Below are positions 948-37,271 of a stretch of 44,243 nucleotides of DNA, piece after piece. The notes beneath the pieces were generated by a model. It was not told where the DNA came from, did not search any database, and was given only the letters and a program-made list of their open reading frames with translations. The translations under genes and the position numbers were made by a program. The number at the start of each line of letters is the position of its first letter. The first letter of the stretch is position 1. The stretch is from an uncultured Saprospiraceae bacterium (GTDB lineage Bacteria; Bacteroidota; Bacteroidia; Chitinophagales; Saprospiraceae). The stretch lies in the NCBI GenBank assembly GCA_938010785.1, contig CALLVC010000202.1:1-44243 (forward strand). Direction: 5' to 3'.

Positions 948-1253
948 AAGGTTACGAAGAAGTAAAAACTGGTAGCACAAACTTCTGTTAGTTTGGGATG
1001 CTGACCTTTAGCTTAGCAAATGATAAATTTTCCAACACTATAAGTCAATTCAGGTCTTCAGACCATAGCCGTCAGGCAAAAGAAAGAGATACGCTGAAAG
1101 TATCGCTTTCTAGGCTCCCCTAGCAGGAGATACTTTCAAAGTATCTCCTGCTTTTCGGTCAATAATCCCTTAGCCTGACGGTTATGGTCTGAAGACCTAT
1201 ATCCTGAACAAACTAAAGTTTGTGCTACCAGTTTCTCAATATACTTCGTACCT
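948..1253. repeat. 306-bp nested palindromic (MITE-like) element
   Basis: Three nested inverted repeats share one centre. The outer arms are 966-983 and 1217-1234, a perfect 18-bp match, and can be extended with gaps to 948 and 1253. The middle arms are 1052-1077 and 1173-1198 (26 bp, one mismatch). The inner hairpin is 1123-1136 with 1138-1151 (14 bp perfect, one-base loop). There is no ORF inside, so it is non-autonomous. A partial second copy of the middle arm lies at about 30055-30100. The right end stops 28 bases before the start codon of the flavin monooxygenase. Confidence 0.8.
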
Positions 1254-1281: not shown

Positions 1282-2415
1282 ATGACAACTACTCCGAATC
1301 TAATTATAGGTGCTGGACCAGCAGGCTTAGGTCTTGCAGGAAGATTGCGAAAAGCTGGAATTGATTTTGAAATCATTGAAAAATCTAACCATGTAGCAAA
1401 TGCTTGGCACAATCATTATGACCGTTTACACTTACATACCGTAAAGCAACTTTCAAACTTACCCCATTTACCATTTCCAGAAGATTACCCATTATATGTT
1501 CCAAGAGAAAAAGTGGTGGAATATTTTGAGAATTACGCTTCAACATTTGATATAAAGCCCCATTTTGGTACAACAGTGAATTCAGTAAAAAAAGAAGGAG
1601 CTGAATGGATAACTCGAACAAAAAATGGAGCGACTTATAAATCAAAAAATGTAATTATCGCTACAGGAGTCAATAGAATTCCAAATATACCAAGATGGGA
1701 AGGACAAGAAAACTTCGAAGGAGAAATCATTCATGCAAAAGATTATAAAAATGCCAAACCTTTTGTGGGTAAAAAAGTCCTAGTCATCGGGATGGGAAAT
1801 ACAGGAGCAGAATTAGCACTTGATTTGAGTGAACATGATTGTGAGACTTATATTTCAGTAAGAGGTCCAGTAAGTATTGTCCCTAGAGATTTGAATGGGC
1901 GACCTGTTCAATTAACGAGTATTCAATTAGCAAAATTACCGTTTGGATTTGGCGATTGGTTGGGTAATTTTATTAGAGGAATTTATTTAGGAGATTTAAC
2001 AAAATATGGATTAAAAGCACCAAAGTTGTCTCCTGCCAAACAACTAAAAGTTACTGGTAAAACACCCGTAGTAGACATCGGTACAGTCAATCAAATCAAA
2101 GCAGGAAAAATTAAAGTAAAACCAGAAGTGCAATCCCTTACCTCTAATGGTGTAAAGTTTAAAAATGGAACGGAACAGCCAGTAGATGCCATTATATTGG
2201 CAACAGGTTATCGAGCTAAGGTAGAAGATTTCATAGATGATACCTCAGGTTTGTTAAATAGTGATAATTTGCCAAAACAAGCTATATTTGATGGTAAAAA
2301 TAAGGGACTATATTTCATTGGATTTGACAATTATAAACTAGGTGGAATTCTGGGTATTATCCAGTCCGAATCATTAACTATATCGGAGCATATTCAAAAA
2401 AATCAAATAATTTGA
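1282..2415 (+). CDS. Flavin-containing monooxygenase (CzcO/YUCCA-like)
   Basis: 377 residues from ATG 1282. FAD-binding GAGPAG at residues 10-15 and NADPH-binding GMGNTG at 170-175 give the two Rossmann folds of class B flavoprotein monooxygenases; ATG motifs occur near 124-129 and 325-333. The family uses NADPH and O2 to oxygenate N-, S- or carbonyl-containing substrates; the substrate here cannot be told. An earlier in-frame ATG at 1222 would add 20 residues, but these are encoded by the right arm of the palindromic element and lie outside the fold, so 1282 is chosen. The element occupies the place where the promoter would be. The next gene starts 49 bases downstream, so they may be co-transcribed. 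Family call sure, substrate unknown. Confidence 0.85.
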   Translation: MTTTPNLIIGAGPAGLGLAGRLRKAGIDFEIIEKSNHVANAWHNHYDRLHLHTVKQLSNLPHLPFPEDYPLYVPREKVVEYFENYASTFDIKPHFGTTVNSVKKEGAEWITRTKNGATYKSKNVIIATGVNRIPNIPRWEGQENFEGEIIHAKDYKNAKPFVGKKVLVIGMGNTGAELALDLSEHDCETYISVRGPVSIVPRDLNGRPVQLTSIQLAKLPFGFGDWLGNFIRGIYLGDLTKYGLKAPKLSPAKQLKVTGKTPVVDIGTVNQIKAGKIKVKPEVQSLTSNGVKFKNGTEQPVDAIILATGYRAKVEDFIDDTSGLLNSDNLPKQAIFDGKNKGLYFIGFDNYKLGGILGIIQSESLTISEHIQKNQII

Positions 2416-23580: not shown

Positions 23581-23939
23581 TTGACTTATCTTTATTTTTA
23601 TAAAATTTTATCTATTTATTTTGGGTTGCCAAGATACCAATTTCTGGTGTCTTTCTTGGTAAGTTTTCAATGTACCGACGAATTCTATAGGTACTTGTTC
23701 GGTTTGAGCTATTTGTTCCGCATTTTGAAAAATCGCATTGCGATAAGGAGCTACAAGCCGGCAAAGGCAGGCGCAGTAGAAGGGCAAAATAAAGTCGCAG
23801 AACTGGTAGGTTATATTTTTCCTATTCCCTTAAGCTAAAATATTATTGGGCAGCTTATTTTTCCCTGCTCCTTGAAATAAAAAAACGTTTACGAAACCAC
23901 AAAGGTTTCGTAAACGTTTTTACAGATTGCTACGAGTTT
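23581..23939. other. 359-base spacer with repeat pieces, no gene
   Basis: Holds a GTACCGACGAATTC word (23672-23685) that recurs inverted at 25905-25918, a GCCGGC/GCAGGC-containing segment near 23758-23776, and the terminator at 23881. An 85-codon plus-strand reading frame runs through these repeats and is judged spurious. Confidence 0.5.
23881..23921. terminator. Strong bidirectional terminator after the OsmC gene
   Basis: 18-bp perfect stem (23881-23898 with 23904-23921) with a 5-base loop; A5 and T5 ends make it work on both strands. It lies 18 bases beyond the OsmC stop. Confidence 0.9.
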
Positions 23940-29730: not shown

Positions 29731-29855
29731 ATGCCTCGTAGCCTTCGGCTACTCGGCAGAGGGATTTTAAGGGTGGGAATTTTTGGATTTTCCCATGGAA
29801 AAATCAAAAAATTCCCACCCTTAAAATCCCCTAGTCGAGCTCGCGAAGCGAGCGA
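29731..29855. repeat. Large palindrome flanked by two small hairpins
   Basis: 36-bp arms (29760-29795 with 29796-29831, about 33 of 36 matching) meet at CCATGG with no loop. The flanks are GTAGCC-TTC-GGCTAC (738-752 in the 29-kb line) and GCTCGC-GAA-GCGAGC (29839-29853). The arm sequence GGGATTTTAAGGGTGGGAAT recurs in degenerate form at 2927 and, shorter, at 25645 and 37164. It may extrude as a cruciform. No ORF. Confidence 0.85.
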
Positions 29856-37098: not shown

Positions 37099-37271
37099 TT
37101 GATTAATTGGGACATTCCCGAAATAAATTCGGGACAGGCAGAGTCCCAATTAATCAAAAAAAAGGGGATTAAAGGGTAAGCTAAAATAGATTTTCTTTGA
37201 AAATTCATTTTAGCTTACCCTTTAAAACCCTTCTTACAAATTTTGCCGTTCGACACGGCAAAATTTGTAAG
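37099..37271. repeat. Cluster of three perfect hairpins
   Basis: Hairpin A: 15-bp arms 37099-37113 and 37143-37157 with an inner TCCCGAA stem. Hairpin B: 17-bp arms 37171-37187 and 37207-37223, preceded by GGGGATTAAAGGG. Hairpin C: 16-bp arms 37233-37248 and 37256-37271 with a TTCGACA loop. No T-tract follows. It fills the 338-base spacer before the DUF3604 gene. Confidence 0.85.

Follow-up and report, generated by a model that had tools for sequence, protein, structure and literature searches.

The nested palindromes upstream of a flavin-binding monooxygenase-like gene are very probably two dispersed repeats, one inside the other: a miniature inverted-repeat transposable element (MITE), termed E, inserted in a palindromic repeat, termed O, with E likely moved by an IS4-family enzyme. 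The window, i.e., the whole stretch of DNA analyzed, is 44,243 nucleotides long, and the region at positions 948 to 1253 and its surroundings contain the following features.

966..1234, no strand: outer repeat O, dispersed and interrupted by E; arms tagged with GTAG at 966-984 and 1216-1234, further hairpin at 1000-1017
1064..1186, no strand: inner MITE-like element E, 123 bp; boundaries from comparison of copies
1064..1080, + strand: left end repeat of E, CATAGCCGTCAGGCAAA; one change relative to the family form
1170..1186, - strand: right end repeat of E, CATAACCGTCAGGCTAA; one change relative to the family form
1081..1111, + strand: first hairpin of E, from fold and sequence
1122..1152, + strand: second hairpin of E, with perfect 15-bp arms
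1054..1063, + strand: left target half, GTCTTCAGAC
1187..1196, + strand: right target half, GTCTGAAGAC; an inverted copy of the left half (its reverse complement) instead of a direct one
1282..2415, + strand: downstream flavin-binding monooxygenase-like gene (PF00743, 123.9 bits); start as in the ortholog of genome G005

An earlier note on this DNA described a single element made of three inverted repeats around one centre. The inverted repeats are real, and the outer arms were found to be perfect as claimed (19/19 at 966-984/1216-1234); the middle arms match at 25 of 26 positions (1052-1077/1173-1198) and the inner hairpin at 15 of 15 (1122-1136/1138-1152). The common centre did not hold up. 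The three pairs are centred at 1100, 1125, and 1137, respectively, and the idea of a single concentric element is not supported. The middle arm is a composite of 17 bp of the E end and about 10 bp of the host repeat O, the inner hairpins are parts of E, and the hairpin at 1081-1111 within E comes in addition to the three pairs described before. The nesting comes from separate elements in layers. Both the DNA fold of 940-1260 (z -14.5) and the RNA fold of 948-1253 (z -15.6) were more stable than all of 100 shuffles.

E was found to be abundant in its own genome. A search with positions 940-1260 gave 136 candidates, of which 40 were scored, and 37 of these 40 places had an identity of at least 90%. 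The limits of the unit, deduced from the aligned copies, are CATAGCC and GGCTATG, and the end repeats of the family are CATAGCCGTCAGGCTAA. We parsed E at 43 loci in 44 rows, two of the rows coming from a single locus; L023 and L038, which have common flanks, may represent one place at contig ends. The length was exactly 123 bp in 24 rows and 130-138 bp in 11, and some rows were diverged or cut. The two ends match each other at 15 of 17 positions in the window copy and at 17 of 17 in other copies. None of the 44 rows overlapped an open reading frame of at least 100 amino acids by more than 60 nt. With terminal inverted repeats, a short length and no coding sequence, E resembles a MITE. The suggestion that the region is a mobile repeat with more structure than a simple MITE agrees with these observations, E recurring throughout the genome and lying within another dispersed repeat.

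Some longer copies of E contain an inserted palindrome of the CCCCAGATAGCTATCGGGG type, which in L032, L034, L036, L037, L039, and L040 is located in the first hairpin of E and forms a further layer. L103 (824-1009) has E-like ends around a wholly different interior of other hairpins. In L097 and L030 an E end is joined to another repeat starting with TAGTAAGTCAAG; in L097 that repeat ends with CTTGACTTACTACTA.

The outer repeat O has the form CTGGTAGCACAAACTTTAGTTTG...GCTGACCTTTAGGTTAGC...AGGTCTNNAGACCT...AAACTAAAGTTTGTGCTACCAG. Positions 948-1050 gave 33 matches in the own genome, several of them as inverted pairs, and both flanks of the window E match copies of O. O with its third hairpin (GTCT-AGAC) and without E was found at nine loci (L337, L341, L343, and L346-L351, with one base changed in L343), and L339 and L345 carry a variant form of this hairpin. 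In the window the third hairpin is split by E. Being dispersed and carrying two inverted, GTAG-tagged arms, O is built like a REPIN, which consists of two inverted tagged REPs.

Exact 9-bp direct repeats flank E in L010, L011, L012, L015, L020, L022, and L032. Among 22 clean-ended copies of E in the own genome, 15 had direct repeats matching at 8 or more of 9 positions, compared to 8% of mismatched copy pairs. We extended the flank tests to elements with the same type of ends in genomes of the genus and in named genomes, giving 102 distinct end pairs out of 108, six having been left out for flanks that were short or identical. Direct repeats of 9-11 bp were found in 52 of the 102 (own genome 12/24, genus 14/23, named genomes 26/55) and inverted flanks with at most one mismatch in 10 (three, three, and four, respectively); 40 had neither (9, 6, and 25). 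The duplication is 9 bp in the genus of the window and 9-11 bp elsewhere.

Empty targets were also present. Forty-seven palindromes of the GGTTTGAAGATGCAATC type occur without E, 42 of them identical by our count, compared to 0 for the reversed pattern. The first empty-target pattern, GATATTTNAAG-N7-CTTNAAATATC, was found 0 times with up to two mismatches, so the evidence for empty sites rests on the GGTTTGAAGATGCAATC palindromes and on O. The empty sites and target duplications that the earlier note had proposed to look for thus both exist for the E family, whose targets are found filled as well as empty in the own genome; the window copy itself is flanked by inverted 10-mers.

The GGTTTGAAGATGCAATC palindrome forms the middle of a further dispersed element, T. 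This element (own genome, L114-L158) is about 152 bp in the measured copy, with ends TAGGGCGAACGAAAAGTC/GACTTTTCGTTCGCCCTA; 28 distinct copies were seen, often at contig ends, and E has frequently landed at its centre. When the flanks of the 43 E loci were compared, 11 were located in T, three matched O (L036 weakly), five matched relatives of E (L011 and L024 over 19 bp only), and 24 matched none of these.

The targets tend to be palindromic. With 8-bp arms taken beside the duplication and a match required at 6 or more positions, 21 of the 52 direct-repeat insertions had palindromic arms, compared to 0.62% of 56,000 random positions. The proportion was 7/12 in the own genome, 9/14 in the genus, and 5/26 in the named genomes; counted by distinct duplication sequence it was 4/8, 4/8, and 5/25. 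The excess was smaller relative to mismatched copy pairs of the own genome (10/22 vs. 24%), because targets common to several copies inflate this control. The preference for palindromes is real, but not absolute, and it is weaker in the named genomes.

Two cases were found of one member inside another. In L179 of genome G007 a 329-bp unit encloses a 155-bp copy that has the same ends and the exact duplication GATACAATC; the duplication of the outer unit has two mismatches. L029 of the own genome has E close to the axis of an older element, which starts with CATAGCCATCAAGCTAACG, ends with CTTATG, and has GTTTCAAAC on each side. The element of G007 was also found to have the form of the targets at its own centre.

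Matches to E itself were limited to two genomes (G002 and G006) of 59 relatives, and the loci examined there share hairpins only. In G002, which belongs to the same genus, the E-type hairpin AGCAGGAGATACTTTSAAAGTATCTCCTGCT stands alone between genes at L042, L045, L047, L050-L052, L056, and L064. The ends are more widely distributed than E. With up to three mismatches, end matches exceeded those of the reversed pattern in G007 (45 vs. 25), G008 (85 vs. 12), G001 (43 vs. 8), G004 (32 vs. 8), and G003 (24 vs. 5), and no excess was seen in G002 (8 vs. 13), G005 (7 vs. 16), or G006 (7 vs. 8). The elements between these ends differ between genomes, being 154-156 bp in G007 and mostly 167 bp in G008, and the MITEs of both genomes have exact 9-bp duplications, e.g., GTTGCAAAC and GTTTGTAAC. 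The 18-base end was found in at least 112 stretches from named genomes (Bacteroidota, Desulfobacterota, Legionella, and others) compared to about 7 expected by chance according to our estimate; this set was chosen by the exact 18-base end, and the uniformity of ends within it is uninformative. The pattern for E itself was found 0 times in the named genomes, a set that the own genome may be outside of.

At seven loci (L205, L206, L231, L264, L277, L278, and L313) two such ends are located 1431-1706 bp apart around one gene. All seven gene products match DDE_Tnp_1 (PF01609) and the NCBIfam IS4 model NF033592 (180-232 bits, cut-off 115), and the YxxRxxxExxxxxxK or YREK motif, as defined in PMC2266710, was present in all four transposases aligned. 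The flanks are direct repeats in L205, L277, and L278, inverted in L313, and neither in L206, L231, and L264. L313 is from G004, of the same genus as the window; two stops interrupt its longer alignment, and this transposase copy may be damaged. A DDE transposase with YREK and direct repeats of about one helix turn place the partner in the IS4 family. Its ends fit the CA------T and CAT-type patterns and its repeats are 9-11 bp, which going by the descriptions in PMC2266710 is compatible with more than one IS4 subgroup, IS4Sa, IS231, and ISH8 being those considered; for a subgroup name, the plasmid annotation rows listed held general labels only. No solved structure related to the transposase was found at an E-value of 1 or below. 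In the own assembly (88.75% complete) there was no IS4-family match at an E-value of 1e-20 or below, and no end pair more than 400 bp apart was found among the own-genome loci examined; the sharing of ends between E and an autonomous partner is seen through the seven loci, none of which is in the own assembly. A further IS4-family element was observed in G008 (L334, contig C636, about 383-1872) with ends CATACGCGTCAACTTAA, located between CCCCCAAGGGG and CCCTTCGGGG, a hairpin-like target.

The closest relative examined, G005, has the same promoter without the insertion. Positions 1-923 and 1244-1299 of the window align to G005, and the 320 bp between them compare to 94 bp in G005 that lack the repeats. 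The promoter region is thereby about 226 bp longer than in G005 through mobile repeats. The last 38 bp before the start codon align, and the G005 ortholog, which is 90% identical, begins at the position equivalent to ATG 1282, the likely start of the gene. Codon 1222, previously thought to be a false upstream ATG, is GTG. Four other orthologs (L161-L164) did not align upstream and neither support nor oppose an insertion. From the one relative compared, the repeats may have been gained here, or alternatively lost in G005. Scans of the region for consensus sites gave nothing on the + strand; promoter-like sites on the - strand numbered two vs. 1.2 expected, and no terminator-like site was present. 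Any effect of the insertion on the gene is putative.

A very stable RNA fold upstream of a gene is what would be expected of a local regulatory structure, i.e., a riboswitch, attenuator or long hairpin controlling the monooxygenase. The earlier note had reasoned that a region unique and conserved in place would point in this direction. Instead, the inner part is repeated throughout the genome at intergenic places and is absent from the G005 promoter, and the one Rfam match in the region was below threshold (E-value 0.57), which makes a regulatory RNA very improbable. Hardly more probable is a composite of the REP/REPIN kind that owes all of its movement to a REP-associated tyrosine transposase (RAYT). 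The GTAG-tagged inverted arms of O do resemble REPs, head-to-head pairing is described as frequent among REPs (PMC3733652), and E-like hairpins stand alone in G002, but E makes 9-bp duplications and its ends are common to IS4-family insertion sequences. O itself may still be of the REP/REPIN-RAYT kind.

Palindromes could also lengthen where they are, with no transposition, through template switching or fold-back replication, recombination being what spreads them. The 10 of 102 end pairs with inverted flanks, the window copy included, agree with this, as does the report that template switching homogenises inverted-repeat arms in yeast (PMC8604942). Neither direct duplications in 52 of 102 end pairs, empty targets, nor ends common to transposase-bearing elements are expected from such growth, and we consider it very improbable as the main process and plausible as a secondary process only.

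Returning to E as a MITE inserted in O, the events were very probably as follows. O is palindromic, bounded on either side by a GTAG-tagged arm and with smaller hairpins in its interior, and the non-coding, 123-bp E landed on the axis of the O hairpin CAGGTCTTCAGACCT. An IS4-family DDE transposase recognizing ends of the CATAGCCGTCAGGCTAA form most likely moved E in trans. It would prefer targets with dyad symmetry, so that landings tend to be at palindrome axes, and with each landing an existing palindrome gains a further layer of inverted repeats. Some members have a target-type palindrome at their own centre, so that copies can stack.

GTCTTCAGAC and GTCTGAAGAC, which flank E in the window, are the reverse complement of each other and form inverted, not direct, repeats. 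Inverted flanks with at most one mismatch were also found in L002, L004, L175, L188, L216, L224, L235, L248, and L313, and in the own genome they were no commoner than in mismatched pairs (2/22 vs. 6%). In the window copy they would have arisen after insertion, by homogenisation of the arms through template switching, as reported for yeast inverted repeats, or by recombination between copies, as proposed for ISRm22 (PMC1525189). At a palindromic target with an uneven centre, complementing one duplication to the other would give arms that pair perfectly.

The nested copies in L179 and L029 and the target-like centre of the G007 element raise the question of a self-stacking system. With somewhat less than even confidence, we suggest a group within the IS4 family that occurs in Bacteroidota, Desulfobacterota, Legionella, and others and has non-autonomous members inserting on the axes of palindromes. 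In this picture the members of some species would offer a fresh target palindrome at their centre, the ever longer nested palindromes serving as new landing sites, and template switching may polish the duplications into perfect inverted repeats. If this is true, nested palindromes would be a by-product of target choice and not of selection for structure.

Insertion sequences that target REPs are established, and a close likeness is to ISRm22 of Sinorhizobium meliloti, an IS4-family element (subgroup IS4Sa in PMC2266710), copies of which are described as lying in REPs on the axis of a highly palindromic target (PMC1525189; PMC2266710). Some of its copies lack matching direct repeats, which was attributed to recombination (PMC1525189). 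Compared by description only, ISRm22 is an autonomous insertion sequence with 6-bp repeats (PMC1525189), whereas here stacked MITEs have 9-bp repeats. IS1397, IS621, ISPpu9, ISPsy8, and other REP-targeting insertion sequences likewise use palindromic repeats as landing sites, but are described as autonomous members of other families with other duplication lengths (PMC1525189). The ISHwa2-related MITE of Haloquadratum is similar to E in being short and non-coding with 17-bp ends assigned to an IS4 element, and differs in its 237 bp and 5-bp repeats; palindrome targeting is not mentioned in the description of that MITE (PMC3852290). REP/BIME/REPIN sequences are, like O, dispersed palindromes in inverted pairs whose outer edges carry GTAG (PMC3733652). 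O differs from them by its additional hairpins, and E by its target duplications and IS4-type ends.

The open-licence literature matches listed include no self-nesting, palindrome-targeting MITE; "Russian dolls" is used there as a name for nested elements in general (PMC3852290). As far as these matches go, what appears to be new is such MITEs, the way they stack, and how widely the end sequence is spread. For the elaborate nested palindromes of intergenic DNA in bacteria, a series of insertions on palindrome axes would be a simple origin, and with the partner it can be tested whether a transposase responds to symmetry more than to sequence. Such structures should not be mistaken for riboswitches or local regulators. 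The other perfect inverted 17-mers, up to 300 nt apart, were found in the window at 23881-23921, 29761-29830, and 37169-37271.
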